Shown piece after piece: positions 1,423-36,803 of a stretch of DNA of 64,000 bases; position 1 is the stretch's first letter; each line of letters opens with the position of its first letter. The notes below the pieces were generated by a model, which made no database searches, was not told where the DNA came from, and saw only the letters and a list, made by a program, of their open reading frames with translations. The stretch spans positions 6,990,983 to 7,054,982 of the forward strand of contig NC_087077.1 of the NCBI RefSeq assembly GCF_026151205.1, read 5' to 3'. The translations under genes were made by a program, and so were the position numbers. The DNA comes from Bolinopsis microptera. Lineage: Eukaryota > Ctenophora > Tentaculata > Lobata > Bolinopsidae.

Positions 1423-2016
1423 GTCATTTAGGTACCGCGACAATTGTGAATTGACCCCTCGACAATTGACCCCCTATGTAATTACACTGGGGTCAATTGT
1501 CGCGAAATCTAGGGTTTAGTACGACAATTGGCCCCCCGAAAATTGACCCACCGACAATTGACCCCCTACCTATGTAATTAAACTAGGGTCAATTGTCGCG
1601 AAATCTAGGACTTAGTACGACAATTGACCCCCATGTAATTACACTGGGTCAATTAATCGGGTTAGGGTCATGGTCAGGGTCAGAGTCAGTGGTCAGGGTC
1701 AGGGTCAGGGTCAGGGTCAGGGTCAGGGTCAGGGTTAGGCCTAGGGTTAGGGTTAGGGTCCTGGGTCAGGGTCAGGGTCAGGGTCAGGGTCAGGGTCAGG
1801 GTCAGGGTCAGGGTCAGGGTCAGGGTCAGGGTCAAGGTCAGGGTCCTGGATCAGGGTCAGGGTCAGGGTCAGGGTCAGGGTCAGGGTCAGGGTCAGGGTC
1901 AGGGTCAGGGTCAGGGTCAGGGTCAGGGTCAGGGTCAGGGTCAGGGTTAATTGTATCAAATTATATTGTCGGGGGGTTAATTGTCGGGGGGTAAATTGTC
2001 GCCCACCCGTCATTTA
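1423..2016. mobile_element. 578-bp non-autonomous DNA transposon with 8-bp TSD, filled with TCAGGG repeats
   Basis: The direct repeat GTCATTTA occurs at 1423-1430 and 2009-2016 and encloses 1431-2008. The left end begins GGTACCGCGACAATTG. The reverse complement of the right end begins GGGTGGGCGACAATTT. Both continue with repeated CGACAATT and runs of C, forming imperfect terminal inverted repeats with internal sub-repeats. There is no transposase, so this is a MITE-like copy mobilised in trans. An 8-bp TSD with ends starting GG fits Mutator/Phantom-like, Merlin-like or hAT-like elements. The first is favoured only by analogy with the other elements in the window. Confidence 0.75.
1660..1947 (+). 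repeat. (TCAGGG)n hexamer array with interspersed TTAGGG
   Basis: Some 40 or more units of TCAGGG fill the middle of the 1431-2008 element. A few TTAGGG units, the usual metazoan telomere repeat, lie around 1733-1760 beside GGTCCTGG variants. Because the array sits inside an element with TIRs and a TSD, it is not a chromosome end. It reads as repetitive peptides in every frame, and these are not genes. Confidence 0.9.
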
Positions 2017-2399
2017 ATGTAATTACATAATACAATATAATACATAATTTGGTTATGTAGACAGCATGAGAGTAGGCCTGGCCATCTCGAAGTGATAATA
2101 ATACATAATACAATGTAAATGTTGCTGTTACAAAATGTATAGCTAACATAAGCGAGCGTTCATGTATGACGTCAGCGACCGAGGGAAAAGGGTATTTGGA
2201 AATGCTGACGGTTGCTGACAGGAGGGGGAGGTATGAGCCTTGTTAACGTCAACAAAAATACGTGAATTCAAATCAATTTTATTAGCAATAAAACGTCACT
2301 AATTTCCTTAAAATTAGTACTCTAACTGAACTCTGGTGACCAACTGCTTAAATCAGTCACACACTAATTTTCCCTGCCTCATGCCTACTACTGGAAACT

Positions 2400-3620
2400 G
2401 TATCTCCAGACAAGTGTCAGACGTTACTATGCATTGGTTGCTCTTCAAAAAGGTTAGCAAAAAGATAAAGAGTGCGACCCTGATAAACTTTTGGGAGAGA
2501 TTCATCGACGACATATTTGGAGTGTGGATGGGGACAGCGGGACAATTTACAATGTTTGTCGAATTGTTGAACAAACTGGCTAAATCAAACTGGCAGAACC
2601 ATATAGAATCAAGGTTATCTTTTTAGACCTTACCTTGAGCTTGGACTCAGAAAATCAGATCTGGTACAAGCTATTTAGAAAGGAAACAGATGCTAGGAAC
2701 TACTTGAGATCAGATACATATGTAGTTTCCAACCCCACCATGTGTAGAGGACCTGGGCGAACTAAAGGAGGATCTTGCCAGATGCGGACACAACAACAAC
2801 GGTGACAAACTAGAAGAAATCGAGCCGAAAGCAATACAGAGGTCTATTGAGAACCCAGGAAATCCAACCAGAGACACTGAGGATAAGACACAACAGAGCC
2901 TCGTATTTTCCGTACAACACTCTTGATAACATTAGTCTTACAAAGTTGGTTAAGAACTTAATCTGGTCATTAAGCTACTAGGTTAATGTTATGTGGGGAT
3001 GTACGGATAGTATTTGCCACTAGGAAACACCCTTCAATCGGTAATACACTAGAAAAGAATCGACAACTGGGACAACTGGAAACCCTTGATGTAGGACAAT
3101 TACAGAGGTGTAATGGACCTAGCTGCAAAATTTGCCCCGTCCTCTTTGACAAGGACTCAAAAGATCATGGGGGGGGGGGGGGGGGGGCCAATGACTACCA
3201 ATAGAGACTTTTGGGGACTAATGGGGACTAAAAATCATGGGGACTAGAGGTCAACTCGTTGACGTAATTCACCATTTGTCCCCATAAGTCCCCAGAATTT
3301 TTGACAGTTATTTATGGTTTTCAAGTTAGTTTAATAACGATACGATCGAGATGTTTTGTCCAAGATAAGAGTAGGATAAATCTAAATGGGGACTAATGGA
3401 GACTTTTGGGGACTAAAAATCATCTAAATGGGGACTAATGGAGACTTTTGGGGACTAAAAATCATGGGGACTCTGGGTAAAATCGTTGACGTAATTCCCC
3501 AAGTCCCCAAAAGTAGTCATTGGCCCCCCCCCCCCCCCCCGATCATGGTCAACAACATAGAACTGGTGCTAGACGGAACTCTAAAATGCAAGGACAAGCA
3601 TGTTATCTACCTTATTGGTC
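2400..3620 (+). pseudogene. Penelope-like retroelement, decayed copy 1 (RT to start of GIY-YIG)
   Basis: Several short frames line up in order as a Penelope-like polyprotein. Around 2490-2530 lies an RT motif-C segment reading WERFIDDIFGVWMG (Y/F-x-DD type). After a frameshift near 2620 comes LDLTLSLDSENQIWYKLFRK, and about 3010-3140 gives ATRKHPSIGNTL followed by RCNGPSCKICPVLF, the cysteine-rich linker of the family. After a nested MITE (3171-3540), 3545-3615 gives NNIELVLDGTLKCKDKHVIY, the entry to the GIY-YIG endonuclease. The rest of the endonuclease and the N-terminal RT motifs are missing. Frameshifts and stops make it non-functional. Penelope-like elements normally encode RT plus GIY-YIG in a single protein of roughly 700-800 residues. 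Confidence 0.75.
3163..3548. mobile_element. 370-bp MITE with G17/C17 termini and 8-bp TSD, nested in the Penelope copy
   Basis: GATCATGG occurs at 3163-3170 and 3541-3548. Between them, 3171-3540 starts with 17 G and ends with 17 C. Directly inside, CCAATGACTAC at the left is mirrored by GTAGTCATTGG at the right, giving a TIR of about 28 bp. The interior consists of repeated GGGGACT-type motifs, for example GAGACTTTTGGGGACTAA, and has no coding content. The element separates the cysteine-rich linker from the GIY-YIG part of the Penelope copy, so it inserted after that copy. The equal length of both homopolymer ends supports the chosen TSD. Confidence 0.82.
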
Positions 3621-3739
3621 ATAATTATCACGGACATTACTTTCACACTGAAGACCTCAGCGTGAATTATTATGTCCGTGAAAATAATGTCTGTGGTATT
3701 AAGGTCCGTGAATAATAAAGTCCGATAATTATTTCCATT
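3617..3739. mobile_element. Possible foldback element, about 120 bp
   Basis: The GIY-YIG reading frame of Penelope copy 1 is lost at about 3617. ATAATTATCACGGACATTA at the left faces GTCCGATAATTAT at the right, and CACGGACATTA faces ATTATGTCCGTG inside. The segment can therefore fold on itself. No clear TSD is visible, so it could also be a local palindrome. Confidence 0.4.
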
Positions 3740-3985
3740 AATTTTAGTGTGCGTCCCACATAGGCGTAGATATGTCTGTAGCCGATTACTATATTAGCTA
3801 ATTAGTATACTAGGACAAATATAATCACTCCTCAGTCACATTCTAGAGTTCAGAAAAAGAGTAAAAAACTGAATATTATAAACTGGAGTTATTTCAATTT
3901 TAAAGAAGACATTTTGGCTAGTATCCCGAACCGAGATATTATATGTGCAATTTTTTTCATGGAAGCCTTTTTACTTAGTATCCAC

Positions 3986-4050
3986 TACAGGCACGTAGCC
4001 AGGATTTTTCTTTGGGGGGCCCTTTGCGAGCGGAGCGAGCCGACCCGTTC
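3986..4050 (+). mobile_element. Solitary hAT-like transposon end
   Basis: The sequence begins CAGGCACGTAGCCAGGATTT, continues to a G6 run, then GAGCGGAGCGAGCCGA. That combination is common at the ends of hAT-type elements of aquatic invertebrates, as I recall it. The matching inverted end is not visible nearby, so this is a remnant or a truncated copy. Confidence 0.4.
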
Positions 4051-4262
4051 AATCCAGCTGCACAACAAAATTTGTTGTTTTCTTGATTTTTTATGTATGG
4101 TGTAAAACAGTGTAGAGAAGTGTACGATCGAAGAATATTTCCAGATTTAAACATGTAACAATTGTTGTTTAAATGCTACCTGAAGCTGTTCAAATGAAAT
4201 TGAACTGGGAGAATCGAGAAGATTACAAGTCACAGCTACGTACAACAATCAGGGTCAGGAAT

Positions 4263-5356
4263 GAAAAGGGATACGTAGATAGAGTTCCTTATAATCCCTG
4301 ACTACGACAGGGAGCTGAAGGCAGATCTGGGAGGGTCTGGGCACAATATTATATTGCTATTATATTATCATCTGCACACTTATACTTTAACTTAGCTTAA
4401 ACTAATTACAACACTACAAATCCATTACATTTATTGAGGATATGAGTATGACGTAGTTATGTCGATACGTTATTCAACTATTTATTTCTATTAGAATCTG
4501 TCTTCACTAAGTCTATTTAGAGACAATCAGAAATTTGAATCATTTATCAAGACATTATACTTATACATCACAAAACCTCCGACTTGATTTACAACTTAAC
4601 TTCACAAACACTAATCATATAATACAAACTTACTCTGTCGGTTATCATACTATAATTCAAGGCAACATTAGCGTCCGTGAATTGATCTCTGCAGGAGCCC
4701 TCCCTTACTAAAACTTGTGTCTTCATCTGCCGTATTACTTGGGAATATCGCCGGTCTCAGCTTCAAACATAAAGGTATGATATTCAATAGATGCCGCTCT
4801 GCAAACTTCACCTGAAAAGGGATAAGTAGATAGAGCTCCTTATAATCCCTGACTACGACAGGGAGCTGAAGGCAGATCTGGGAGGGTCTGGGCACAATAT
4901 TATATTGCTATATTATCATCTGCACACTTATTCTTAGTTTTAAACTAATTACAACACTACAAATCCATTACATTTATTGAGGATATGAGTATGACGTAGT
5001 TATGTCGATACGTTATTCAACTATTTATTTCTATTAGAATCTGTCTTCACTAAGTCTATTTAGAGACAATCAGAAATTTGAATCATTTATCAAGACATTA
5101 TACTTATACATCACAAAACCTCCGACTTGATTTACAACTTAACTTCACAAACACTAATCATATAATACAAACTTACTCTGTCGGTTATCATACTATAATT
5201 TAAGGCAACATTAGCGTCCGTGAATTGATCTCTGCAGGAGCCCTCCCTTACTAAAACTTGTGTCTTCATCTGCCGTATTACTTGGGAATATCGCCGGTCT
5301 CAGCTTCAAACATAAAGGTATGATATTTAATAGACGCCGCTCTGCAAACGTCACCT
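4263..5356. repeat. Two-copy tandem duplication, 551-bp unit
   Basis: The block from 4263 (GAAAAGGGATACGTAGATAG) to 4813 is repeated at 4814-5356 with only scattered differences: short indels near 4360/4900 and a few substitutions such as ACGTAG to AAGTAG. The near identity indicates a recent duplication. The unit is AT-rich and no coding frame is conserved between the copies beyond what identity forces. Confidence 0.9.
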
Positions 5357-6670
5357 TATCACCTACCTGAAACAGATTTTAAGATAAGCAACTAAATAAA
5401 GATTCGTTGAGATTCTGAGTTTCTGCCCTGACGGCTAACCAAATAAAATTTGGTTTAAGATATTTACCTTCTTTCAGATTTCTTTTTTAGACTGAACTAA
5501 ACTTTAAACGATAACCTCTGAATGATCTGAACAACTAACTTTAAGGACATCGATCCTAAGAAATGGCCGTTTTTAAAAGCATTAAAAAATTTCAAAGGGT
5601 CTACACAATGTCAATAACGCGCGGCCGGCTGGCGCTAGATATTGTAAAAGGCTTACGATTTTTTCCTTTATTCATCAGAAAGTCAATGTGGCAGACATAA
5701 AGAGCTAAAACTCTGTCAAAGCTTCTAGATCAATCTTTCGATACTGTTTAGGCGGGAACTACAGGAGGTGCTATTTTCAGGTCCGTCTAGATCTCTGATA
5801 GGAAAAGTTAGTGGATCACTGGATCCGTCCCTGAAGTGAAACAAATGTTACTATCTTGCAAATGTTAACCATTTTATTTCGATTAGAATCGAATTTAACA
5901 TACTTAAACTTGATATGATGTAATAATGAGGTACGTGTAAAAATCAAGGGTATCCCTCGAGCCAGTTCAGCTTGTGTAGTATAACAAAATAAATAGGGAA
6001 AAATAAGGGAGAGTACCTGGTGCCATGCTGTGTCAACAGAAGCGCTGAGGATAAATTCAGTGAGCATTAGTTGGAAAGGATTGTCATCAGTTACTGTGTG
6101 AGTTAGTGTTGTGGTGGACGAAAGGATAAGCCGCTGATCAGGGATATAGGCCCCTCCTCACGAACTCTCTGCTGTGTTGGCGCAACGAGTGAGACTTTGG
6201 GGTGGTCAAAAGATGTGATGGTCCCGTCAAGTCTTGGCGAAACTCAACATAGGTCAGATAGGTAGAAAACAATGCCATTGGAAAACTCTATCCAATGCAA
6301 TAGTCACATTATAGTCATTTCTAGAAGAAGAAAAAAACCTGGTTAATGTTGTTTAATGTGAGAGAATAAGATAAAAGAGTCGACCAATTTTTGTCAGTGT
6401 AAATATTGTCAAACAGCGGGCTCCAAAATCGTCTAGGGGGAAAGAGCCCTGAATATCAGCTATCTGCCTTAGTACCTTGGCTCTAAAGTCTAAATTATGC
6501 AGCGATGACGACATAAAAAGTCGCTGTATCATGGCAAATCTTGCTTTGTCAGAACTAAAAGAAGGTTTAGGAGCAAAGTAAATATCAGACTTAAGATATG
6601 AAAGCACAGAAAGACTGAGTCAAATGTACAATTGTAGCTGCTGTCAGCTATTCTGCATCAAATAAAATAT
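5357..6670. other. No gene seen
   Basis: Unique-looking AT-rich sequence. Several open frames of 60-85 codons occur on the minus strand, but they have no recognisable motif and sit in low-complexity composition. No inverted-repeat element was identified. Confidence 0.3.
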
Positions 6671-7227
6671 TAAGGGGCCATCTACTTAGGACGTCCAGCA
6701 AAAAGGGAGGGGGAGGTGGTTTTGGAATTTCGGACAAATCCGGACAGTGATAGGGAGTGGTTTCTGAAAATCCGGACGTCCGGAAATTTTGGCAGAATTA
6801 ACGAAAAAGTCGCATTTATTTCAACTCTTTGACACTAATTACTCAGTAAGTTTAGATCCCTGTATTTTGAACGAGAAGTCGTTTCCCAGAGCAGCTCATG
6901 AGAGCTGAGACACAACTCGCATATTCTGCTACTGCCTTAAAACTTATTCCATTGGATGGCTACCTACTTAAGTACCTTAATGTAACTGTGCTAAACTTGT
7001 TCGACACTAAATGTATTATTGTCTATTCTAAGTGACTACACATTTTATTAACAATGAATTTGAGTTGTATTGGTTTTATTTGTACTCTTTAAAGTAGCTG
7101 GAAATCCGGACGTCCGGGGGAGGGGGTTTGAAAATTCGGACACACCCGGACAGGGGGAGGGGGTGCTCCCCGAGGGTGGTCTGAAAATCTGCAATTTTGA
7201 CGGACGTCCCAAGTAGATGGCCCCTAA
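6671..7227. mobile_element. 551-bp Harbinger-like MITE with TAA target duplication
   Basis: TAA at 6671-6673 and 7225-7227 encloses 6674-7224. The left TIR reads GGGGCCATCTACTTAGGACG and the inverted right end GGGGCCATCTACTTGGGACG. The shared 23-bp TIR extends to GTCC and has one mismatch. The palindrome TCCGGACGTCCGG is repeated just inside both ends, as at 6774-6786 and 7103-7118. A 3-bp TWA duplication and GG-starting TIRs fit PIF/Harbinger. A TTAA-type element is an alternative because the flanks are TTAA on the left and TAAA on the right. No transposase is present. Confidence 0.72.
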
Positions 7228-7569
7228 AGTCTAAACAAAAGTTCTCAAAACGTACACAACGAGAGAGTGTCGACCTACATGTCAATGAAACAGACTGTTT
7301 CACTGTTTGAGACAACACGTGTGTTTGCGCGCAATTCTGGAATAATCCGAGAGATGAACTGTAGCGAGTGTAACTTTAGTGTGCAGATGAGTGTGTACTT
7401 CGATGTATACTATTTCTGCACGTACAGGATCCTTTGTAAGGGGTCATTCACATATTTAGTTATCACTCACTTTGCTAACCAATACAGCAATACTGGGGTA
7501 GGTTCACTGATAGTGTTTCTCAGAGATATAGATGGCTGTAAATTATGCTAATAAATATATAAAAATAAA

Positions 7570-7850
7570 TATGGTCAAATGTGAAATGTTAAACAATGAG
7601 ATGATTTAAGAGAAGCAAATATTAGTGGACTGAAATTATAATCTGATAAAGTGCAGCTGTGAACTCAAATGTATAAAACAAACTCACAATTCGGATCGAA
7701 CAGTTTAAAATGAAACACAATAAGACAGAGTAATTGGTAAAATGTTAAACAATAAGCTGTTTTAAGACAAGAAAATATTAGTCGACTGAAATTATGATCT
7801 GATAAAGTGCAATGTGAACTCAAATGTATAAAACAACAGATCGAACAGTA
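7570..7850. repeat. Diverged tandem duplication, about 156-bp unit
   Basis: AAATGTTAAACAAT at 7584 recurs at about 7740. Both copies continue through ATTAGT(G/C)GACTGAAATTA, TCTGATAAAGTGCA and AACTCAAATGTATAAAACAA to GATCGAACAG. The second copy leads directly into the larger satellite that follows. Confidence 0.75.
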
Positions 7851-9020
7851 TACAATAGTACATTTAACAAATGTACTATTGCAAATGACAAAAGTGTAAT
7901 AAGGTAACTGGTAACAAGTCTGCTGGTTATTCAAAATTTAACATTAAAATATGTCCCGGCCCTTTGAATCATCCACCGAATGATCAACTGAATGATTGCA
8001 ACAGACAAAGAAACAAGCAAAATTTGTTAAATGGAGTGCATGATCAAAGAAGGTATATTAGCTCCCTACAAAAATCTAATCCAATGAGAAAATAAATCTA
8101 AAGTCCAATTGCAAATGACAAAAGTGTGGTAAGGTAACTGCAGGTAACAAGTCTGCTGGTTATTGAGAATTTAACATTAAAATATGTCCCGGCCCTTTGA
8201 ATCATCCGCCGAATGATCAACTGAATGATTGAAACAAACAAAGGAACAAGCAAAATTTGTTAAATGGAGTGCATGATCAAAGAAGGTATATTAGCTCCCT
8301 ACAAAAATCTAATCCAATGAAAAAATAAATCCAAAGTCCAATTGCAAATGACAAAAGTGTAGCAAGGTAACTGCAGGTAACAAGTCTGCTGGTTATTGAG
8401 AATTTAACATTAAAATATGTCCCGGCCCTTTGAATCATCCGCCGAATGATCAACCGAATGATTGCAACAGACAAAGAAACAAGCAAAATTTGTTAAATGG
8501 AGTGCATGATCAAAGAAGGTATATTAGCTCCCTACAAAAATCTAATCCAATGAGAAAATAAATCTAAAGTCCAATTGCAAATGACAAAAGTGTAGCAAGG
8601 TAACTGGTAACAAGTCTGCTGGTTATTCAAAATTTAACATTAAAATATGTCCCGGCCCTTTGAATCATCCGCCGAATGATCAACTGAATGATTGCAACAA
8701 ACAAAGGAACAAGCAAAATTTGTTAAATGGAGTGCATGATCAAAGAAGGTATATTAGCTCCCTACAAAAATCTAATCCAATGAGAAAATAAATCTAAAGT
8801 CCAATTGCAAATGACAAAAGTGTAGCAAGGTAACTGGTAACAAGTCTGCTGGTTATTGAGAATTTAACATTAAAATATGTCCCGGCCCTTTGAATCATCC
8901 GCCGAATGATCAACTGAATGATTGCAACAAACAAAGGAACAAGCAAAATTTGTTAAATGGAGTGCATGATCAAAGAAGGTATATTAGCTCTCTACAAAAA
9001 TCAAATCCAATGAGAAAATA
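7850..9020. repeat. Satellite-like tandem array, 230-233-bp unit, about five copies
   Basis: The marker CCCGGCCCTTTGAATCATCC occurs at 7955, 8188, 8421, 8651 and 8881, spaced 233, 233, 230 and 230 bp. Each unit also carries GTTAAATGGAGTGCATGATC, AAGAAGGTATATTAGCTC and TCCAATTGCAAATGACAAAA. The 3-bp length change comes from presence or absence of GCA in AACTGCAGGTAAC. The units are highly similar, so the array is young or homogenised. No protein is conserved. Confidence 0.93.
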
Positions 9021-9104
9021 TTGTTTTCCGATATTACAATCACAATCCACGGACATGACTAAAAATGACTGACACGTCCCGCGCGGCATCAGAAATATGG
9101 GAGG

Positions 9105-9206
9105 AAATCTGGCACCACGATTTGTGGTGCCAGTTTGTGGCCATGGATAGAGCCCTCTTTGCCGCCTCCGGCGGTCGCGCGCTACTGCAAGCGAGAGGGC
9201 TCTGGT
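9105..9206 (+). other. GC-rich multi-hairpin segment in a dispersed repeat
   Basis: Three nested or adjacent stems can be read. CTGGCACCAC-GATTT-GTGGTGCCAG (9109-9133) is a perfect 10-bp stem. AGAGCCCTCT (9149-9158) pairs with AGAGGGCTCT (9194-9203). GCCGCC-TCC-GGCGG (9161-9174) lies inside that second stem. The composition is far more GC-rich than its surroundings. It may be part of the repeat ending at 9356, and could derive from a SINE or a transposon end. No tRNA A/B boxes were recognised. Confidence 0.5.
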
Positions 9207-9281
9207 TAGAGCAAAAGGGAGGCCTAGGCTTTCAGAAATTGCACTACAAAGGGGAACCCTCGAGTCCAAAATCGTATAGGG

Positions 9282-11333: not shown

Positions 11334-13055
11334 TTATATGTCTAAGACCATCCTGAGAATCCTGGCTGATCCAAGCAGAGCTGTCTTCTGGAGATTAGAG
11401 ATGCTCAGATTGCAGTGGACTGCGTCGAGGTGTTTACGAAAGTTTATGGTGATAGTTCCTAATGCGCCTATCACCACAGGGACGATTGTGACCTTTCGTA
11501 AATTCCAGTTCTTCTTAATTTCTCTTTTCAGGTCTTGATATTTCAGAATCTTTTCTTGTTCTCTATCCAAGATCCGGGTATCTCCTGGGACTGCAACGTC
11601 AATGATGGTTGCTGCGTTGGTTACCTTGTCTACCAGGAGGAGATCCGGTCTACAGTGTTCGATAACGTGGTCCGACTGGACATGGAAGTCCCACAATATC
11701 TTGACTTGTCCGTTCTCCAGCACCTTCTCTGCCCGGTGTTCGTACCACCTTTTACTGCGTGGGAAGCCGTATTCCTTGCACAGACTCCAGTGCAATGCGG
11801 CAGCTACTTTGTCATGCCGACACTTATATTCTGTCTGTGAAAGTTTTGGGCACCCATTCAGTATGTGGTCTATTGTCTCGTAATGATTTCTGCAGAGTCT
11901 GCAGAGGGGAGAAGAGCCAGGTGTTTTGTCAATCCTGTGCTTCACGTAATTAGTCCTAAGTGCTTGGTCTTGGGCTGCTATCAACAATCCTTCTGTCTCC
12001 TTCTTCAAATCTTGTTGGGTGAGCCAGTTCCAAGAGGTTAACGGGTCTGCTGTACCCATCATCTGCCTTGGGAACTGTCCGTGCATCACTTTAGCAGTCC
12101 ATTTCTCCTTGCGGATTTCCTCGCGTTGTGTTCGGTCAATATCTTTCTCTATCTCTTCACCCAAGAGTATCTTGTCTTTGACAAAGTAGTCCTTCAGAGC
12201 AATCAGTTCTGGGTCTCTACTTCTCACCACATAAGTAGTGAGTGCATTCTCCTCTCTCTTAACGACTTCCTCTATACTATGTAGCCCACGGCCACCCAGT
12301 TGACGGCTGACGTATAACCGATCAACATCTCCTTGGGGGTGGTGAGCTCCATGTATCCTCATCAGTTTCCGGGTCTTGACATCTAAGGCTTTGGTCTCCC
12401 CAGCATTCCATGAGAGAATTCCAGCTCCATATCTTATCACAGGTACAGCCCAGGTGTTAATCGCTTGTATACTATTCCTGCCATGAAGCTGGGATTTCAA
12501 AACCTTTTTAACTCTTCTGATATAATCTTTTGTAACCAGTGCTTTCATCTCTTTGTGTAGTATATCATTAGCTTCTAGTATTCCGAGATACTTATAGCCG
12601 TCGTCCTCCAACTCATGGATCTGTTCACCTGTGGGTAGGGAGATGCCTTCAAAAACGGCTCTTGCTCCCTTCTTCACCTTCACCACGGCACATTTCTCTA
12701 GCCCAAATTCCATTTTTATGTCACTGCTGAACTCTGCTGTGGTATTAACCAGTGTGTGCATTTCGTCTTCACTCTCGGCATACAACTTGAGGTCGTCCAT
12801 ATATAGCCTATGCGACACTTTCGGTTGACCTCCTCTCTCCAGAGAGTATCCTATGTCATGCTTATTCAAAAGAATGGACAGGGGTATAAGACTAATGATA
12901 AAGTGGATAGGTGAGACTGAGTCTCCTTGGAATAGACCTCTATTAATTTTAATTCTCCCAAGGGAAACTTTACCAAGCATCAGGTTAACATACGATTGTT
13001 TGAAGGAGGCTTCAAACAGGTCTATGATGCATGAAGAGATGCCACACATGGTCAA
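11334..13055 (-). CDS. RT and restriction-like endonuclease, 5'-truncated (R4/Dong-like)
   Basis: A 573-residue open frame without internal stops; its first codon is TTG, and the true start was lost with the 5' end. Visible domains in order: RT palm with RGLFQGDSVSP (residues 39-49) and catalytic YMDD (85-88); thumb/linker; a CX2CX8HX4C finger with C385, C388, H397 and C402; then the endonuclease core with RPD (469-471), IIDVAVP (484-490) and a following KYQDL helix. This is the order in R2/R4-type elements, where one protein nicks DNA and primes reverse transcription. The RT motifs before the QGD block are missing, so this copy cannot be complete. The C-terminal half is intact, suggesting a fairly young insertion. 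R2 or NeSL membership is possible; R4/Dong is favoured by the TAA flanks. Confidence 0.85.
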   Translation of the reverse strand: MTMCGISSCIIDLFEASFKQSYVNLMLGKVSLGRIKINRGLFQGDSVSPIHFIISLIPLSILLNKHDIGYSLERGGQPKVSHRLYMDDLKLYAESEDEMHTLVNTTAEFSSDIKMEFGLEKCAVVKVKKGARAVFEGISLPTGEQIHELEDDGYKYLGILEANDILHKEMKALVTKDYIRRVKKVLKSQLHGRNSIQAINTWAVPVIRYGAGILSWNAGETKALDVKTRKLMRIHGAHHPQGDVDRLYVSRQLGGRGLHSIEEVVKREENALTTYVVRSRDPELIALKDYFVKDKILLGEEIEKDIDRTQREEIRKEKWTAKVMHGQFPRQMMGTADPLTSWNWLTQQDLKKETEGLLIAAQDQALRTNYVKHRIDKTPGSSPLCRLCRNHYETIDHILNGCPKLSQTEYKCRHDKVAAALHWSLCKEYGFPRSKRWYEHRAEKVLENGQVKILWDFHVQSDHVIEHCRPDLLLVDKVTNAATIIDVAVPGDTRILDREQEKILKYQDLKREIKKNWNLRKVTIVPVVIGALGTITINFRKHLDAVHCNLSISNLQKTALLGSARILRMVLDI

Positions 13056-13093
13056 ACATGGTCAAACAATTATTATTATTATTATTATTATCT

Positions 13094-13832: not shown

Positions 13833-14769
13833 CGTTGAGCGGGGGGAATGCAACGTCAATTAATGTCAGTATTCCATAAAAACCCCAAACTGACATTGAC
13901 ATTAATTGACATTAATTGACATTAATTGACATTAATTGACATTAATTGACATTAATTGACATTAATTGACATTAATTGACATTAATTGACATTAATTGAC
14001 ATTAATTGACATTAATTGACATTAATTGACATTAATTGACATTACTTGACATTAATTGACATTAATTGACATTAATTGACATTAATTGACATTAATATGT
14101 CTTGAAATTTGAGATTATCATTATTCGATAAATATTCAAGATATTCACGTCTATGTAAGTTAGACCGGTTCAAAAAAACAAAATGTCCTTGAATAATTAT
14201 GAGTATGTTCTTATCTGTTGATCCTTAGGTTCAAAGACCACCAAAAAAAATTTCAGCTTCCAACTCTTCCATCTTCGGTCCCCACCGGCCACGCCCATAT
14301 TTTATTGGTTTCTTATACAGGTAAAATATCTAGAATCGGCTTCTTTAGTATGAAGGAGTAATGTTAGCTGTTTAAGATTCGTTATTCAAATATAAATGTC
14401 ATGAAGGCATTTCGTTTAATGTGGGTTTTAAGTTCTGATGATGTTGAGAACCACGCCCTTGGATGGCCACGCCCATTTAAGAAAATTAAATTTAGGGAAA
14501 CCGTATTATTTTAGTTTTATTGTTTAATGATCTGAATTTTTTCACATTTCACATTTCCATATGTGATAGTAGTGAATAAATTAATGATATAAACGTTCTA
14601 AAGTGCTAAAAATATGGTAGAACTACATAATCTCTGGTCGAAAAATATCGTGTCAATTAATGTCAGTATTCCAAAATTTTGCAAAACTGACATTGACATT
14701 AATTGACATTAATTGACATTAATTGACATTAATTGACATTAATTGACGTTGCATTCCCCCCCGTTGAGC
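13833..14769. mobile_element. 921-bp MITE with G6 termini and 8-bp TSD inside a reading frame
   Basis: CGTTGAGC at 13833-13840 and 14762-14769 encloses 13841-14761. The left end GGGGGGAATGCAACGTCAAT is mirrored by the right end ATTGACGTTGCATTCCCCCC. The TIR extends further into TTAATGTCA. Arrays of TTGACATTAA lie inside both ends, about 20 units on the left and five on the right. The module GTCAATTAATGTCAGTATTCC followed by AAACTGACATTGACATTA occurs just inside the left TIR and again at about 14652-14700 in the same orientation. The central 550 bp have no coding content. The element is non-autonomous. Confidence 0.88.
13890..14095 (+). repeat. (TTGACATTAA)n decamer array
   Basis: About 20 perfect or nearly perfect 10-bp units; one unit near 14044 reads TTACTTGACA. 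A shorter array of the same decamer lies at about 14690-14745 near the opposite end of the same element. Confidence 0.93.
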
Positions 14770-24627: not shown

Positions 24628-26091
24628 CTAAAATTCTTCAGTACTAGCTATGATAAAACGTTTAATAGTATCCAGTTCTTCTCTCTTGTTAATTGTAGGG
24701 TTCAGATTAATAATAAACATCGCTTCGAAAATCTTTCTTCTGACAGTATTGGGCTCAATTCTTAAAATATCTACTTCTAAACTGGGATTTAACCCCTTAT
24801 GACAGCTCGAATAATGTATGGCAAAAGCTTGACTAACATTAGAAGGGGTAGCAGGGTAGGTAGCGTAACGTAAGTGTTCTCCTACACGAGCATGTACTTT
24901 CCTACTGGTTTCTCCAACGTACAGCTGGTCACATAATTTACACTTAATCTTATATACAACATTCTTCACTTCACAATCTTTATTACAAACTATCAAAGGA
25001 CAAATTTTACATGAATTAATACTGCACACACGTTTATCATACGGTCTGTTACTACATAAAATATTTCTCAATTTCGAAGTAGGTTTAAAGTTTACTTTAA
25101 TAGGTAAATTGTTCTGCTTTACATAATTTCTAATCTTATTGCTAGTACTGTCCGAAATAAAATCTAAATTAAGAACTGTCCTGGAATCATCCTCAACACT
25201 CTGACGCCTGTTAGAATTACTACTGTTACAATAACGTCTTGGGTTCTGGTACCCGTTTTTCTGTAATAGATCATCAAGGAGTCTGAGAGAGTGCTCCTTT
25301 TCCGCTGGGCCAGATGAGATACGGCAAGCCTCGCTATATAGGTTCTTCACTGTATTAATCTTAACAGACTCAGGATGACAAGAGTTGTTGTGCAGGGTAA
25401 TATCCTTTTGTTGCGGCTTGCGGTACAATCTGCTGGTTAATTTACCGTTTGGCTCGATCCGGACCTCAGTGTTCAGGAAGGGGATAAAATCGTCCTGTTG
25501 TTCTGGAAAGTCGACCTCCCACTTCAACTTTTTGTCCGGATCTTGGTCTGCAATCTGTTGAACCAGAGCAAGGGCTTCTTCTTTCGTCTCTGCAGTACTG
25601 GCAGCATCATCTATGTAGCGTTTGTAGAAGTTCGATAAGTATACCGATAGGTAGTGTCGATCGGTGTAGATAGAGTTCTTCTCGAACTTGTACACTCTAA
25701 TGATGGCACAGAAGGGCCCTGGCCTCAAACCCATGAACAGACCATCCTGCTGTAGCCAGAGAGTCCTGTTAAAAACAAAGAAAGAGTTGGTAAGGATGTG
25801 TAGTAGGATCTCATGAATGTCTGTCAGGCTGAGTCCCATCAGGTCCAAACTGTCTCGGTGCTCTGTAGCTAGCTCAATGACATCGTCTATACAGCCCTGT
25901 ACGTTTATGTTAGTGTATAAAGCTGAAATATCCGCGGCAAAGAACTTTCTCCTGGCAAGCTGTTCCTGAGAGATCTGGCGGAGCATCTCTATGTGCTGGA
26001 TTAAATTACTCAGGTGACTAGGCACCTCATTAAGGAGAGGTTTAAGAATGGTCGTCACTAGCCAACTGAGTCTCTCTGTAGGTGAGTCCAC
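24628..26091 (-). CDS. Penelope-like retroelement RT plus GIY-YIG endonuclease, 5'-truncated
   Basis: A 487-residue frame without stops; the first codon used is GTG, and coding similarity (LISCVDSPTERL) continues a few codons upstream to a stop near 26115. RT motifs: A at FFAADISALYTNI (catalytic D54), B at GLFMGLRPGPFCA (117-129), C at YIDD (159-162). A cysteine cluster (C356, C361, C364, C369, C373) precedes the GIY-YIG domain, with VVYKIKC (378-384), YVGETSRK (391-398), H406 and a later FEAMFIINLNP containing the expected E and N. The protein would copy element RNA and nick target DNA. The N-terminal domain and first RT motifs are missing relative to full-length relatives. The frame is otherwise intact, so the insertion is young or conserved. 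Neighbouring DNA has no related gene. Confidence 0.9.
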   Translation of the reverse strand: MDSPTERLSWLVTTILKPLLNEVPSHLSNLIQHIEMLRQISQEQLARRKFFAADISALYTNINVQGCIDDVIELATEHRDSLDLMGLSLTDIHEILLHILTNSFFVFNRTLWLQQDGLFMGLRPGPFCAIIRVYKFEKNSIYTDRHYLSVYLSNFYKRYIDDAASTAETKEEALALVQQIADQDPDKKLKWEVDFPEQQDDFIPFLNTEVRIEPNGKLTSRLYRKPQQKDITLHNNSCHPESVKINTVKNLYSEACRISSGPAEKEHSLRLLDDLLQKNGYQNPRRYCNSSNSNRRQSVEDDSRTVLNLDFISDSTSNKIRNYVKQNNLPIKVNFKPTSKLRNILCSNRPYDKRVCSINSCKICPLIVCNKDCEVKNVVYKIKCKLCDQLYVGETSRKVHARVGEHLRYATYPATPSNVSQAFAIHYSSCHKGLNPSLEVDILRIEPNTVRRKIFEAMFIINLNPTINKREELDTIKRFIIASTEEF

Positions 26092-26119
26092 GCAGCTGAT
26101 TAGAATATTGATTTATTTA

Positions 26120-29060: not shown

Positions 29061-29061
29061 C

Positions 29062-29888
29062 GTTTAAATCGGGGGGGGGGGGGGGGGGGGGGGGGGGGGA
29101 GGGGGGGTGCAGGTACTTTTTTGATGGAACATATATGCTGACTTTTCGAAATTTCTGAAAATAACCACCCACCCACCTCCTTCACGAATGGAATAACAAA
29201 AAAGTACCACGGTACTTTTCGAAATTTTCCCGAATGACCCCCCACCCCCTCCTTTATTTTTCAAAAAATTCCTGTTCATCAGCAAAAGTCCACGGCTTAT
29301 CATGCTCCTTCTACAAACTGCGTTATGTTGTGCTTAGTGTGCCCACAATACCACTGGAAGTACAACATGGCGCAGCACTTTTCCACCAATCATGGTGACC
29401 ACGAGCTCCCAGAGGACTATGCCCTGGAAAAGGCAGAGGAGGAGTGGGTAAAAAAAACTAAAATTTTAGATTTTATATGTATTTTGTTATGTTGACTATT
29501 TACTATTATGAATTATTTTAGATTTTGTATATTGACACGAATTTTTCAATTTATTCTTCAGCAGGATTCTATGTTGATTTTTTGAAATTATGCATCTATA
29601 TTAGAGGACAAAAAAAGTTGAAGCAAATTATCTCATAGGTAAATCCTGTGTATCATTTATTTTTGATAATTCACCATAGCATAAGTTGGTTGCAAATTCT
29701 AACATTTTGGTAATGAAAAAGTACCATGTACTTTTATAATCATGTTTTGGGGTACCCCTTCTTTTTTTTGGGACAAAAAAAGTACCATTATATACTTTTC
29801 GAAAATTTCAAAAAACACCCACCCACCCCTCGGGTACTTTTAGGGTTATGTTCCATCAAAAAAGTACCTGCTCCCCCCACGTTTAAAT
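29062..29888. mobile_element. 811-bp element with G-tract ends and 8-9-bp TSD
   Basis: (C)GTTTAAAT at 29061-29069 and 29880-29888 flanks the element. The left end is C, 29 G, A, 7 G, then TGCAGGTACTTTTTTGATGG. The reverse complement of the right end is GTGGGGGGAG followed by CAGGTACTTTTTTGATGGAA. The TIR beyond the G tract is 24 bp or more and perfect. Internally, GGTACTTTT and AAAAGTACC motifs recur in both orientations. A short zinc-finger-like coding segment (29271-29495) is carried inside. The unequal terminal bases and very different G-tract lengths suggest slippage after insertion. Confidence 0.82.
29271..29495 (+). CDS. Zinc-finger-like coding fragment inside the G-ended element
   Basis: A plus-strand frame open through this interval reads CLVCPQYHWKYNMAQHFSTN followed by HGDHELPEDYALEKAEEEW. 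The spacing CX2CX10HX4H (C at 29331 and 29340; H residues near 29373 and 29388) is that of C2H2/BED-type fingers. A possible splice donor (TGG/GTAAAA) lies right after EEEW, at about 29447. BED or C2H2 fingers are common at the N-terminus of DNA transposases, so this may be a remnant of the autonomous parent. It could also be a captured host exon. No transposase core follows. Confidence 0.45.
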   Translation, partial: PVHQQKSTAYHAPSTNCVMLCLVCPQYHWKYNMAQHFSTNHGDHELPEDYALEKAEEEWVKKTKILDFICILLC

Positions 29889-30299
29889 TAGAAAGATCCT
29901 ATATATTTTGTAAAAGAACCCCCAACTTCAACTTGAACATGGTCCTGCAACTACCATCCACCGCGGATTTATCTAAGGATAGATTTGTGCTGTAATCTGA
30001 CCATAAAACTAAAATTTAAATCGCTGCATATTCATAAGATCTGTTCACTGTTCAGTTCCTAACACCCCATACTGATTCGCTCTCATCTCAGATAATTTCG
30101 CCCCTCCCAGACCGCAATGCTCAACCTGCTTCCGGCCATTATCGGCTATCAGTTCTAAACTCCCAGACCTTGTGTGCACAGAGAGATTATTGTTGCTCTC
30201 AAGCCGTAGCAGCAGTTGAGAGTATACGTGTATATTATATTATAAGCTCTCTCCAGATGCTTTATTATTATCTAATTGCTGTCCGTATTTCCTTATGCA
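29889..30299. other. No gene seen
   Basis: Unique-looking sequence between the G-ended element and the CACGTG array. Nothing recognisable. Confidence 0.3.
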
Positions 30300-30560
30300 C
30301 TCCCACCAATCACAGAGCATTAATACGCCCACGTGCATTCCTTCCACCAACCACAGAGCATTAACACGCCCACGTGCACTTCCCACACCAATCACAGAGC
30401 ATTAACACGCCCACGTGCACTCCTCCCACCAATCACAGAGCATTAACACGCCCACGTGCACTTCCCACATCAATCACAGAGCATTAACACGCCCACGTGC
30501 ACTCCTTCCACCAATCACAGAGCATTAATACGCCCACGTGCACTTCTTTCACCAATCAGT
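30300..30560 (+). repeat. 41-bp tandem array, each unit with an E-box and a CCAAT-like motif
   Basis: CACGTG occurs at 30330, 30371, 30412, 30453, 30494 and 30535, spaced exactly 41 bp. Each unit reads roughly CCAATCACAGAGCATTAACA followed by CGCCCACGTGCA. CACGTG is the palindromic core bound by Myc/USF/MITF-type bHLH factors and CCAAT by NF-Y. Just downstream are CCAATCAG and, inverted, ATTGG (about 30592). Whether the array is regulatory is inference; it may be a plain minisatellite whose unit contains these motifs. Confidence 0.85.
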
Positions 30561-30904
30561 GAGGAGGGTCCGATCACATGAGGATCATGATTGGTCCTGT
30601 GTGTTGAAGTGGTGTTTGCATCCTCGCTTTCCCAGCTTTCTCGCCTAGTGAGTCTGCTGCTAGCCACGCCAGATCCAGAAAAAGAGCGGTGTCTATTATT
30701 GCTGTGACCAATGGAGGATGGATGTGGGATGTGTGGCTAATCGTCAGGTGGGAAGAGTAGTTACACGTTGTTATTCATCCTCCTCCTCGTCCAGCCTCCT
30801 CTAATTTATAATCACATTCAGTGTGTGACTTTGTGTGCTTGTGTGCCTGGTTTGATCCTTCTGTTTTTAGAGATTGATTTGATTAGTGTGTAACGGCGAC
30901 TTGC

Positions 30905-31092
30905 GCTGCTTTGTTGAGCACCACTTTGTTGAGCACCACTTTGTTGAGCACCACTTTGTTGAGCGCCACTTTGTTGAGTGCCACTTTGTTGAGCACCACT
31001 TTGTTGAGCGCCACTTTGTTGAGCGCCACTTTGTTGAGCGCCACTTTGTTGAGCACCACTTTGTTGAGTGCCACTTTGTTCAGCTCCACTGT
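30905..31092 (+). repeat. 15-bp minisatellite, about 12 copies
   Basis: Units of TTGAGC(A/G)CCACTTTG, with TTGAGTGCC and terminal TTCAGCTCC variants. Because 15 is a multiple of 3, the array is open in several frames as pentapeptide repeats (FVEHH on plus, LNKVA/LNKVV on minus). No real gene context supports translation. Confidence 0.92.
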
Positions 31093-33429
31093 CTATCTGG
31101 TGTTAACTATTAGTAAACCTGTAGTGGAAATCTAGGGTTCCTTTATCTTGTTGAAATACAGCAGTTTTAAAAAATCTGGGTTTCTAAATATATAATACTC
31201 CAGAGTACACTTAAACAGTTAAACCTTACAAGCGTTGTCAGTGGAAATAAAGATGTGTTAGCTAGATAAAAATAGTCGACAAATCCTGTTTGCGTTTGGA
31301 ATTCGCCATAAATTTATTAAACTGGAATAATGAATATTATGCTTTAAGGTATAACTTTTCCTTCGACGCTTAACTTCAGCATGTGATATTAGAGTGTCAA
31401 AATAATCAGGCCATTTAAATTAGGCTTGCAGCTCTCTTAGTATTGTTGTTTTCTATTTATATCCGAACTGCAATGAGAACTTCGGATCCAGTTTTAATTG
31501 CTTATAATCATTACATATTGACATATTATTAGCAATTCAACATACGGCCTGACACTTTTCAAACATATTCCATTTTAAATCCCATAGAAAATGGACAAGC
31601 TGAAATACTGAAATAAAAGCCTGTATCCACTTGAACGTAATTCCCTTAGCTTTTTCTTTCTAGATGTGCCGATATTATGGAATGCAATACCCTGTTAACT
31701 AGGAATGCTCTGCTTCAGCCGGGTTATTATCACTAGTCACTACTAGGTATTTAAAGTTCCAGGTCACTATCAAAAATCAAGCCACTAATGACACGAGTCG
31801 ACCACTATTTCAACATCATATTTGGAATTTTTCCGGAAACATCTGAAGGTAGCCGGACCACTTTCGTTGATGGGAAATACCATGCTCTAACTTGCTCTAT
31901 CTTGCTCTAACTTGCAGTTGATTGGATAATACTTTCATCGTTGTGGTCAGTTGAGATTTAGTATGCGGATATTATGTTCTTTTGAAGAAATAAGTTCCGC
32001 CTTTTGAACACTTGCAATTATCAACCTGACACAAACAGAGTGGAGTGCTTGTAACTAATTAATGCATCGTGTTTAGAGCGAATTAAAAATATTTCCGTAA
32101 AACAAAGGTTTATTTGTGGAGTAATAAGGATATTTACCTGAGTACTAGAGGACTGGCACCACATGTACCATGGTGAGTGCTGGGCTCACAACACAAATGT
32201 AATATCCGGCTCGATCAAATGTTTTACAGTACCTGGACCTGGCTTTCCTCGGGTAATAACCCTTCTCAGTCACTGATGAAGTGCTGATAGGAACTTGGTA
32301 TTTTACATGCTTTAATTCTTGGACGTTTTGACATCATGCTACAAGACATTTTGAACTATATTGTGAACTATATTCTCATAAAGTATCCATACAGCGTTTA
32401 GTCGTTGCTTTATCATTAGCTTTCAAACAGTATCAAGATTCTTTTAACTATTACAGTATTACAGTGAACCCAGATCTAAGCTCGCCGCTCGAACCATTCT
32501 TTTATCTGCTAGAAAGTATCAAGATTCTTTAATCTATAAGAAAGTATCAAGATGGGTGTGCACCATTCTCTTATCCAGACTAGTATCTTTTAGTAATTAT
32601 ACAGATTCCAGACAGAAACACGTGCTGGGAAAGCCAGATTGGCAGATTTACTACCGATCTCTCAAAGTAAAGAGTTAGATAGCTCCCTTTCCTTTAGATT
32701 AGAATCATCTATTGTTGTCAGAAAAACAGCTTTCTATAAACCGTTGTAAAGCGCTATTGTTCCCGTTCTTTAAGAAGGCTTTACTCCGCGATTTTAAAAT
32801 AGGGATAATGCCTATTAAGCTTTGAATCACCACTAGATTCAGCGTATGACATAGTGACGATCATTAGCCTGGGATCCTTCTTTCTTTTTATTCTATCGAG
32901 TGTTCATTCTATAAAACCTGTTGATCTTTTGTGACATTTTATTTCTGCCTGTGCTCACAAGATACCGTCCTTTTAATCTGAGCTAATAATAGCCCGTCAA
33001 TGAATGGGTCAAACATAGCATAATATAGCTCCTCCATCTTTAAAAACAGCAGTCTGAATACATCATTGAATAGATCACATGATATTATAGCGCTTTGATT
33101 ATGTTTGATTACACGAACCCTGATTAATGGTTCATTAATAGAGCTTTATCCGTGATTGTTGGGGGCCGTGCACAGTACCTGCTTGCAAATTGGCTGCTAG
33201 GTAACACACATGTGGGACACGGAGCACTGCTAGGTTGTCTCGTGTAATAACACTCACGCTGCTATCGGAACACTCTCGGAACCAGCAAATAGCCATGAAT
33301 ATTGAATTATGGAAGGCGTTTAAAGAGCAGTGGGCGTAAGAGCTACGATTATCAAGTTTGCTCTGTGGCACGAGTTTTGTTGAGAGTTGCTCGCGCCTAC
33401 CACCACGTCTGCAACGATTGGGCGACAAT
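31093..33429. other. No gene seen
   Basis: AT-rich sequence without recognisable coding regions. AGTATCAAGATTCTTT recurs near 32430, 32515 and 32540, a weak local repetition. Confidence 0.3.
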
Positions 33430-33742
33430 CGACATCTGTCCGACAGCGACATCTGTCCGACAGCCGAATTAGGGATTGCGGACAGATGTCGCTGTCGGAC
33501 AGGATTCGTTTTTGGCGATATCTGTCCGAATTTCGGATCATATTGTAATTTCGGTTCACATTCGTATTTCACAAGCTCACGGGTAATCTCGTGACGTTGC
33601 TCCCATTGTTCTAATGCTGATGTGATCCATTGAGAACTGATCCATCGATACGTGATTGACTAGTTGAGGACAGGAGCGTGCTAGCCGTACACTAACTGAG
33701 TCGGACAGATGTCGCTGTCGGACAGATGTTGCTGTCGGACAG
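33430..33742. mobile_element. Foldback structure built from CTGTCCGACAGCGACAT repeats
   Basis: CGACATCTGTCCGACAGCGA and its continuation (33430-33464) are mirrored immediately by GACAGATGTCGCTGTCGGAC (33481-33500). They are mirrored again at 33700-33742 by a triplicated TCGGACAGATGTCGCTG unit. Even the unit contains the near-palindrome CTGTCCGACAG. Such nested inverted arms resemble foldback transposons. No TSD could be assigned. Confidence 0.55.
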
Positions 33743-33755
33743 GAGTCGTGTTACC

Positions 33756-33822
33756 CCTGCCACCACGCCTGCCACCACGCCTGCCACCATTCCTGCCACC
33801 ATTCCTGCCACTACGACTGACA
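33756..33822 (+). repeat. 12-bp tandem repeat (CCTGCCACCACG/ATT)n
   Basis: About five units of CCTGCCACCACG and CCTGCCACCATT, directly after the foldback arms. A related CCTACCACCACGTCTGC lies at 33394, on the other side of the foldback structure and in the same orientation. Confidence 0.8.
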
Positions 33823-36042
33823 CCGCAATTTGTAGCCACTGACATCCCTTCAAAATATGTTTTTCACATCCTTTCACATTATATAATATCATGTTTATTG
33901 TTCGTGTACATTTGTGGCTAAATTTCTGCGGTCCTGAATTGTTTGAATTCCTTCACACCGTTCCTTCTCCCTTTCTCCAACTCAAATTACATTTGTGGCC
34001 AGAAAATTAAATTTTGACAGCTTCACCACTAGATCTTAGTAAATTTGAAAATGTAAGTTTTGCAGGCTGAACGGGTTTTCAGTTCCCTGGCTCCCTGGCC
34101 CTGGTTTCTTTGACTTAATGTTTAAAAATTCCTGTCTTTTCTCGATGTTGTGTGCTCAGGAGTCAGGGTGTTTGTTTGGTCTGCTAATGATCGTGATGCA
34201 CTCAGCGCTCTCTAAAAGCTGCAGCAGACGGGGTTTGGATTTAACTGGAAGGATATTGAAATTGACCAGCCATTGAAGATGAAATCTTGATCTCCAGCTA
34301 ATTGAATAATTCTGAGAACTTGCTTGATCGTCCCATTCTAAAGTTATTGACCCAGCTTATCGTTACATAATGAGACGCGAGAATAGATTATTGAGTAGAT
34401 ATTGTAGACTCATAACTATATTTGTAAATAACCGCGCAGCCGATAGTTGGGCATTCTCGGCCACAATGATCTAGTAGCATTATGTTTCATATGACAATAT
34501 GATAGAATCGAGTGTTGAATCGAATAAGATAATAGCCCGTGACGTCACATATCTGATGCACCAGACTTACATCTTCTTCTAAGTTCGTAAAATTCTATTG
34601 TTTGCAAATAGCAAATAATCCAGAATGATCCCTATCACGGCATGTCCCTCATTTCTCTTGTGCAAATACCTACATATAATATGATGATAGTTAGCTTTGC
34701 GGTAACATCCACTGCACTCTGTTATTTCTACCGTGATCGATTGACGGATTGGCTCTGAACTTGCCAGCTTGTGCACGATCATGGGTGAAAGAAGCTATAC
34801 AAATTTCTGAATGCCAACTCTCAGATACTACGAGATGTGTCCAGTTTTGTACTGACCGAAATTTTGTCTTATGCTCTAAGTATTAGTGTGCATGTCTGAG
34901 GCCCATATCATTCATAACTTCATGAGAATCAATGTTACAGGCTAGCTTCTATAATGCTTGTGATGCTATCAATTACACGCCACACGTACCGTGAGTTTTA
35001 AAATCTTCATCAGTGATGTCTCTTGTGTTAAACTGTGTGCGAGTTGCTTTTCTTGTCCCTCTCTTTAGTTTATAACAGTTTACACTTTACAAGATTTAAT
35101 ACTTTCCGTACTTGGTGTATTTTTGGATATTCTAGAGAGGGGTGACCTGTTGAATCTGTGATCTAACTTCTAGCACCTCGGCCTCCTTTACTATTCGTAA
35201 TGAGGCAGCCTTTACTTTTCTGGCTTTCTAAAAATTGTGTTTCTTTGAGTTTTTTTGTATCATCGCTTCAATGGTACAACTTGAATGCGTCTAAGTTTAT
35301 TTCACTTCAATCTTGACATCAATTTGCATTATATTATATTTATTAAAATATATTGGTAGTCGGCTGATCCTTACCCTCGCATAATATATCTTAAAAGATC
35401 CGCCGCTAAAGTTTATAATTGGTTGATTAGTTGTCGACATGCTAGATTACAGACGCTAGTTGTCTGTGATCATTATGCCCAACTGCAGATCATTTGCTTT
35501 CCTGGTGTCGGGCCATTTTTTGAGAACTTTATGGGATTCTTCTTACAGTTTATGTGTTTAAACTGTCCCATTATGCCGTTTACAGGCCTAGTGACAATTG
35601 TCATGTATAAATATAATGACCCTATCAGAGTATCAGATTGTAACCTGTGTAAAGGTAGCGAACCTGACCAGTGAGCTCGTCTTGACTCTCGCGGATACAA
35701 CTTTCTAACTTCGTAGTTAAGGATGGCCTGCCGTTATAACTTTATAACTTTGTAGTAAAAGAAAGTTACTTGCCGTTTTTGGTAAGAAGCAAAATGCTCT
35801 CTTTTTGAGTTATTGAGACTTGTCTGCATGCAGATTGGTTAAAACGAGGCTTATGTAATGTTGTAATTGTTTGTAGCTTTGTAGACGATGCTTGTCTTGT
35901 GCTGGTATGCTTGTTAGTATCAGCATTTACTAGAGAGCTCTGTAAATATACAAATATAAACCGTCCATCAACAATTTTGAACGTCATTGAACTATACTGT
36001 GTTCGTGTTTGGCCACAATTGCGAATTATTGCAATTTTCGTT
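33823..36042. other. No gene seen
   Basis: No recognisable coding region. A single TGACGTCA (CRE-like palindrome) at about 34539 is noted without further support. Open frames of 65-85 codons have no domain signature. Confidence 0.3.
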
Positions 36043-36803
36043 ATCTAAAAGGGCTGGACGATTAAGGGGGCCCCCGATTATTAGGGGTCAGATCATATGA
36101 CGTATAATTAGTGATGTGACGTATAATTAGTGATGTGATCCACCAGCTATGATCTACAGAACATGTGAACTCTACCCTATATCTAGCCCAGTTTAATTTC
36201 CGAACAAGGATTCCCGGATCGGGACTGAGAAAGCTGTAAATGAGTTCCCGTCACAAGTGTGAGTGAAGTGAGGGGTGTCAGAGGGCATATGCGGATGTGA
36301 TACGCTGTCGACATATGGTAATGCGGACACCGCAGGGGATTGTTCTGTAGACACTAATGCTGTCGGTTTGACAAGACATAAGCCCCGGCACAATCTCCAA
36401 AAGCGTAGCAAGGATTCTCACCGTACGTAAGAATGCGATACTATTGTCTTTCATCTTCCAGTATATATACCTAAGAACACTTGATCGGCTAACTCCCCTC
36501 GCCTGCCTATGGCACGTACGTCTCACATCCCTTGATACGAGAACCCTCTTTAGCAAGAGCTCCCGTCCCTTATGTGATCTACGAGTCGAGCAGTCAGATC
36601 ATGTTCACTTCTTAATGTACGGCTATGATTTACAGAATTGACATGTGATTTGTGAACTCTACCCTATATCTAGCTCATTTCTGGGTCAATTAAATTCTAC
36701 TGATGGATCACATCACTAATTATACGTCACATCACTAATTATACGTCATATGAATTGACTCCTAATAATCGGGGGCCCCCCTTTGTCGGCCTCCCATCTA
36801 AAA
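36043..36803. mobile_element. 745-bp element with long TIRs and 8-bp TSD
   Basis: ATCTAAAA at 36043-36050 and 36796-36803 (followed by G in both) flanks 36051-36795. The left end starts GGGCTGGACGATTAAGGGGG; the inverted right end starts GGGAGGCCGACAAAGGGGGG. Both continue with CCCCCGATTATTAGG, then two copies of GACGTATAATTAGTGATGT, then GATCCA, so the TIR is about 80 bp with subterminal direct repeats. Further in, GCTATGAT(C/T)TACAGAA and GTGAACTCTACCCTATATCT occur near both ends but in direct, not inverted, orientation (36146-36190 and 36622-36676). No transposase is present. Long TIRs and an 8-9-bp TSD suggest a Mutator-like element. Confidence 0.85.

Follow-up and report, generated by a model that had tools for sequence, protein, structure and literature searches.

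The stretch of DNA analysed here (64,000 nucleotides, hereafter the window) comes from the ctenophore Bolinopsis microptera (contig NC_087077.1, positions 6,990,983 to 7,054,982 of the forward strand; G000:C6:6990983-7054982) and contains five short elements, E1 to E5, each with a G-rich start, a C-rich end and a perfect flanking repeat of 8 or 9 bp, the target site duplication (TSD; Table 1). These features were first listed in a preliminary description of the window and were confirmed by the letters, which were read directly and checked by scripts, and by further copies and controls in the genome (264.65 Mb, 232 contigs). The boundaries proposed earlier for E1, E2 and E3 were retained, and the G run of E4 is indeed preceded by an additional C. 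E4 ends one base earlier than described (29879, not 29880), and the start of E5 was moved by one base (36052, not 36051), giving a TSD of 9 bp, because the end of its family is GGCTG. Each of the five is a member of its own repeat family in the genome.

Table 1. Elements, flanking duplications and transposase remnant in the window, in window positions (MITE, miniature inverted-repeat transposable element; MULE, Mutator-like element)
Feature	Position	Strand	Description
E1	1431..2008	+	578 bp, non-autonomous; ends GGTACCG-CGACAATT and GGGTGGG-CGACAATT
E1 TSD	left 1423..1430, right 2009..2016		GTCATTTA, 8 bp
E2	3171..3540	+	370-bp MITE; both ends a long G run, then (C)CAATGACTAC
E2 TSD	left 3163..3170, right 3541..3548		GATCATGG, 8 bp; also empty site in L005
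E3	13841..14761	+	921-bp MITE; both ends GGGGGGAATGCAACGTCAATTAATGTCA; 10-bp ATTGACATTA subterminal arrays
E3 TSD	left 13833..13840, right 14762..14769		CGTTGAGC, 8 bp
E4	29070..29879	+	810 bp, non-autonomous; left end (C)G-run, then TGCAGGTACTTTTTTGATGGAAC; right end inverted
E4 TSD	left 29061..29069, right 29880..29888		CGTTTAAAT, 9 bp
E5	36052..36795	+	744-bp non-autonomous element, almost certainly a MULE; ends GGCTG... and GGGAGGC-CGACAAAGG
E5 TSD	left 36043..36051, right 36796..36804		ATCTAAAAG, 9 bp
MULE transposase remnant	54038..54373	-	PF10551, E-value 4.9e-6, 27.3 bits vs gathering cut-off 27.6

At a first look, candidate copies in the genome numbered 499 for E1, 219 for E2, 391 for E3, 26 for E4 and 570 for E5, and at most 40 of these were scored per family; the E5 matches include many from a related family that covers just part of E5. 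Exact end patterns were found at 499 places for E1 (109 for a control, the pattern read backwards), 118 for E2 (22 letters; control 0) and 383 for E3 (28 letters; control 0), and body identity in the 40 scored E3 copies is 98-100%. Patterns designed to detect E2 or E3 ends joined to another inner sequence matched at 1 and 2 places, respectively, and are uninformative. Among the five window elements, BLAST (E-value up to 1) detected nothing beyond homopolymer G and short matches of 13 bp or less, in line with the earlier claim that the terminal inverted repeats (TIRs) are unrelated beyond the G run. E1 and E5 are perhaps an exception, as CGACAA is common to both at positions 8-13, after unequal 7-bp outer motifs, and is present in all four E1 and E5 ends in family form (the left end of the window E5 is mutated); this likeness is weak (hand estimate of 15 offsets x 4^-6 x 10 family pairs, about 0.04). 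A whole-window scan for TIRs with TSDs recovered E1 and E3 and missed E2, E4 and E5 with their outer ends, in our reading because of low-complexity filters and unequal outer motifs. Elements of the hAT superfamily usually start with CA, and the terminal G speaks against such a start.

The interior of E1 contains 15-bp subterminal repeats of the CGACAATTGACCC type and a (GGGTCA)n core, that of E5 contains 19-bp subterminal repeats, and the subterminal arrays of E3 comprise 3 to 20 units at the left end of the element and 3 to 9 units at its right end (30 loci). Convergent pairs of E1 ends combine a GGTACCG end with a GGGTGGG end in 15/15 cases with letters available, some of them copies of one host repeat, and the E5 copies that were read likewise have one end of each kind (4/4). 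The last seven letters of E3 are GGGGGGA in 29, GGGGGTG in 20 and GGGGGGG in 10 of 59 ends. In E2, the G run ranges from 0 to 48 letters (median 17; 58 ends, 30 loci). Of the copies that lie outside the host repeat described below, 19 could be parsed in full; their median is 16, and 17 of them have at least five G at both ends. The G runs of E2 and E4 are both highly variable in length, with slippage and homopolymer assembly error as candidate causes. An E1-like sequence also forms a tandem array that repeats about every 91 bp (G000:C4:1501589-1502394), perhaps a satellite that arose from a transposon end.

The preliminary description had taken TSDs of 8-9 bp as common to all five elements. 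Across copies this length, or slightly more, holds for E3, E2, E5 and E1 but not for E4, which stands outside the rule with 6-9 bp. For E3 (30 loci, with L039 being the window copy and L049 dropped), an exact repeat of at least 8 bp flanks 29/29 parsed copies (23 of 8 bp, four of 9, one of 10 and one of 11), and the longest exact repeat in 812 pairings of flanks from different copies was 5 bp. Nine of 30 E2 loci (L009-L017, including the window copy) share the host repeat of the window copy and were excluded. TSDs of 8-9 bp are present in 18 of the 21 other copies, 14 detected by script and four of 8 bp by eye (L020, L021 with two extra bases, L035 and L038); L023 matches at 7 of 8 positions and no TSD was visible by eye in L022 and L037, and the same swapped-flank control gave at most 6 bp in 420 pairings. 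E5 TSDs measure 8 bp in two further copies (L080 and L081) and 9 bp in a third (L082) and in the window. The E1 TSD is 8 bp in two independent insertions, one in the window and one at C6:7551818 (TTTTTACG); the copies L001-L008 and C10:12401865 represent one shared insertion, and the right end of two C9 copies lies outside the captured letters.

E1 and E2 lie in one larger dispersed repeat, of which window positions ~727-5900 are one copy, and are therefore not separate insertions in the window. Other copies of this repeat were found at L002-L008 and L010-L017, with pieces outside E1 that are mostly 96-99% identical. The repeat contains direct repeats of about 550 bp (4262-4813 and 4813-5356), and part of it resembles what we take to be a Penelope-type reverse transcriptase. 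Copy L005 aligns to window 2098-3170 and then to 3541-3918 with an overlap of exactly 8 bp. It is the E2 target without E2, carrying a single copy of the duplicated 8 bp, and thus supplies for E2 the empty site that the preliminary description had proposed to look for.

The MULE transposase domain (PF10551) has 88 matches in the genome, and four distinct matches lie within 4 kb of 5/39 E5-family places (expected 0.10). Three copies, L080, L081 and L082, have both unequal E5 ends, GGCTGCACGACAAAGG and GGGAGGCCGACAAAGG, around MULE frames (PF10551 E-values 4.8e-9, 2e-8 and 1.1e-8, respectively). Two relatives (L084 and L085) encode FLYWCH, above cut-off, together with MULE, and the protein of L081 is 66% identical to that of L085 over 185 amino acids; FLYWCH was not above cut-off in the N-terminal fragment of L082. 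Passages on the Tm1 family give FLYWCH plus MULE as the domain set of Phantom transposases (PMC3169594). E5 is of MULE origin with near certainty and probably belongs to the FLYWCH-type (Phantom-like) kind, the FLYWCH part being taken from the relatives alone.

For the other families, convergent pairs of ends were sought among the first 100 of 499 E1, 100 of 118 E2 and 100 of 383 E3 ends. This yielded 33 convergent E2 pairs within 15 kb, 12 of them longer than 1.1 kb, and one of these (C3:20490622-20494356, 3.7 kb) encloses a MULE match about midway (expected 0.017 by uniform placement; coordinates only). E2 probably derives from another MULE family. E1 and E3 resemble MULEs by architecture, with no transposase linked to either: the 15-bp arrays of E1 and the 10-bp arrays of E3, the latter variable in number, correspond to the anatomy of Aedes MULEs (in passages of PMC5225508) and of Tm1 (in passages of PMC3169594). 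We lean towards a MULE origin for E1 and, equally, for E3, possibly from further MULE families. For E4 such an origin is a tentative and somewhat doubtful suggestion. The earlier proposal of several Mutator/Phantom-like MITE families is thus partly supported: it is borne out for E5 by the MULE frames and likely right for E2, the architecture of E1 and E3 makes it plausible for these two, and E4 was not placed.

We therefore read the window as holding single copies of five different families of non-autonomous cut-and-paste DNA transposons, one of them shown to be MULE-derived, with a probability of roughly 0.75. The terminal recognition sequence differs from family to family, and the transposase that mobilised each family in trans most likely came from its own autonomous relatives. 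The DDE transposase of each family would bind its own TIR and subterminal repeats, cut at the terminal G/C bases and insert with a stagger of 8-9 bp, and internally deleted copies could be moved in trans. The common look would be the usual trace of MULE transposases, with an inner TIR that varies by family, as is described for MULEs in the papers cited below.

MULEs are characterized by TSDs of 8-11 bp and by TIRs that range in length from 14 to 500 bp, with Muta placed in the Phantom group (passages of PMC6446971). In most arthropod MULEs, G/C is highly conserved at the first three TIR bases, and several types with distinct TIRs and transposases are present per genome (passages of PMC13359780); the hosts differ from ours, and the word MITE is absent from the main text of that paper. 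Given the G/C ends, distinct TIRs and 8-9-bp TSDs reported for MULEs, five elements of MULE origin would be expected to resemble each other in the way seen here. A close likeness is with Muta, the Phantom group MULEs of Aedes aegypti, where passages of PMC5225508 report TSDs of 8-9 bp in all 14 families, non-autonomous derivatives that share TIR and subterminal regions, and a variable number of repeats in Muta1. The host is different, however, long terminal G runs such as those of E2 and E4 were not met in the Muta passages, and the TSDs of E4 are 6-9 bp. Tm1, a Mutator/Foldback family of root-knot nematodes, has unequal 7-bp outer motifs, as E1 and E5 have before their shared inner motif, composite repeat-rich TIRs, MITE-like members, FLYWCH/MULE transposase relatives and TSDs of 8-10 bp in 45/53 elements (passages of PMC3169594); in contrast to Tm1, the motif sequences here are others and E1 has no linked transposase. 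MITEs with long terminal G runs were not recognised in the titles and abstracts returned by term searches, which is no proof of absence. The five families are new but of a well-known kind, and the pattern is ordinary.

Several results weigh against this reading. An intact full-length autonomous copy was not found among the copies seen for any of the five families; in the E5-ended copies, the frames comprise 341 codons in L081, 198 codons in L080 and two overlapping frames in L082, and the FLYWCH-encoding relatives L084 and L085 match E5 DNA just in pieces of 27-40 bp, without an E5 end. MULE matches are absent from 11/12 long E2 pairs and from within 4 kb of the 39 E2 body copies examined; the E2-MULE link is one of coordinates, and a MULE nested in an E2 copy may be the alternative. 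Neither MULE nor Merlin matches occur within 4 kb of 39 E1 places, and no transposase match was found inside eight long E1 pairs or 12 long E3 pairs from the subset of ends covered. The 22 E4 places likewise have neither kind of match at a distance of up to 4 kb, and exact TSDs flank 5/10 E4 copies, with lengths of 9 (window), 8, 7, 7 and 6 bp; of the remaining five, one has a 7-bp repeat with a mismatch and in four no TSD was found. The search for an autonomous copy with the same ends, which the preliminary description had put forward, gave MULE frames in E5 copies, one enclosing pair for E2 and, in the end pairs and places covered, nothing for E1, E3 and E4.

In the swapped-flank control for E4 (90 pairings), there was no exact repeat of at least 6 bp and one of 7 bp when a mismatch was allowed. 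The copies L071, C11 and C7 allow a reading in which 7-bp repeats flank an element of the form C-G(n)...C(n)-G. Three long copies, L069 (5.8 kb), L070 (3.9 kb) and L071 (2.3 kb), were inspected as autonomous candidates, and no transposase was recognised by eye; L069 has no TSD, and the frame inside L070 is of reverse transcriptase type in our reading. Two frames, the first from the E4 copy in the window and the second from L071, had no Pfam match at an E-value of 1. All E4 copies seen may be non-autonomous. The open frame of L070 (906 codons) appears to be a retroelement nested in an E4 copy.

Another explanation, which we consider unlikely, is that two or more superfamilies converge on one outline, E5 (and perhaps E2) being MULEs and the others Merlin or other elements that start with GG and duplicate 8-9 bp. 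Merlin is present in this genome, with 58 matches to PF12762, 18 of which have open frames of 295 codons or more without internal stop. Several groups of matches have identical scores, and recent Merlin activity is likely. The Merlin element at L079 starts with GGCAGTTTACAAG and has an 8-bp TSD (GAATATCC), in agreement with the conserved 5'-GG and 8-9-bp TSDs given for this IS1595/IS1016-related group in passages of a review (PMC8101967). E1, E2, E3 and E5 share this outline; E4 differs from it, as a C precedes its G run, and its TSD lengths of 6-9 bp speak for mixed superfamilies. The G-rich look cannot name the superfamily because a Merlin element of this genome likewise combines GG ends with a TSD of 8 bp; terminal G with TSDs of 8-9 bp is not diagnostic, and the single superfamily suggested by the preliminary description is not established in a genome where 58 Merlin and 88 MULE matches coexist.

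The positions of the Merlin matches argue against this explanation. None lies within 4 kb of 39 E1, 39 E2 and 22 E4 places, and 1/39 E5-family places is near one (3.2 kb; expected 0.07). Among the copies and pairs of ends available, which cover part of each family and include the long E1, E2 and E3 pairs, none was found to have a PF12762 match between E1-E5 ends. As a common parent, Merlin was rejected at the eight loci fetched (L072-L079, of 58 matches), none of which has the end motifs of E1-E5, although most of the eight lack visible Merlin ends and a clear TIR with TSD was seen just in L079. Assignment to a superfamily needs a transposase with the same ends, which is available for E5 and tentatively for E2.

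It is very improbable that several families whose inner TIRs are unrelated are moved by one transposase that recognises little beyond a G tract at the ends, a tolerance of very different TIRs having been offered as an alternative in the preliminary description. The five window elements do share only G-rich ends and 8-9-bp TSDs, and in both E2 and E4 the G run is long and varies in length. However, the transposase-coding relatives bear the ends of their own family (the three E5-ended copies and the E2 pair on C3), the inner TIRs are conserved in the exact E2 and E3 end matches, which a rule based on the G tract would not keep, the TSD length of E4 deviates from that of the other families, and the ends of E1 and E5 are paired asymmetrically. 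A related proposal, that E4 and perhaps E2 and E3 have an expandable poly-G recognition tract, with the transposase reading tract plus target so that the TSD drifts over 7-9 bp, seems just as far-fetched. Chance, by which a single window scanned by eye may give G and C runs beside random short repeats, has a negligible probability and is refuted by the family copies, the empty site and the flank-swapped controls.

Other features of the window include the MULE transposase remnant, which had been placed at 54 kb and is real, with a PF10551 score just under the cut-off; it is linked to none of the five element ends, and the neighbouring frame (54270-54605) had no match in a Pfam search. The minus strand also contains an open reading frame (ORF) of 575 codons (11334-13061; RVT_1 E-value 3.4e-11), a reverse transcriptase fragment that is probably from a long interspersed nuclear element. 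Two further long ORFs on the minus strand (24628-26112 and 50366-51097) have no Pfam match at an E-value of 0.001 and by eye resemble, presumably, Penelope-like reverse transcriptase with GIY-YIG.

One of five such families is now tied to a transposase, and the rest are additions to the catalogue. Our results showed that terminal G runs and 8-9-bp TSDs are insufficient to place MITEs in a superfamily where MULE and Merlin coexist.

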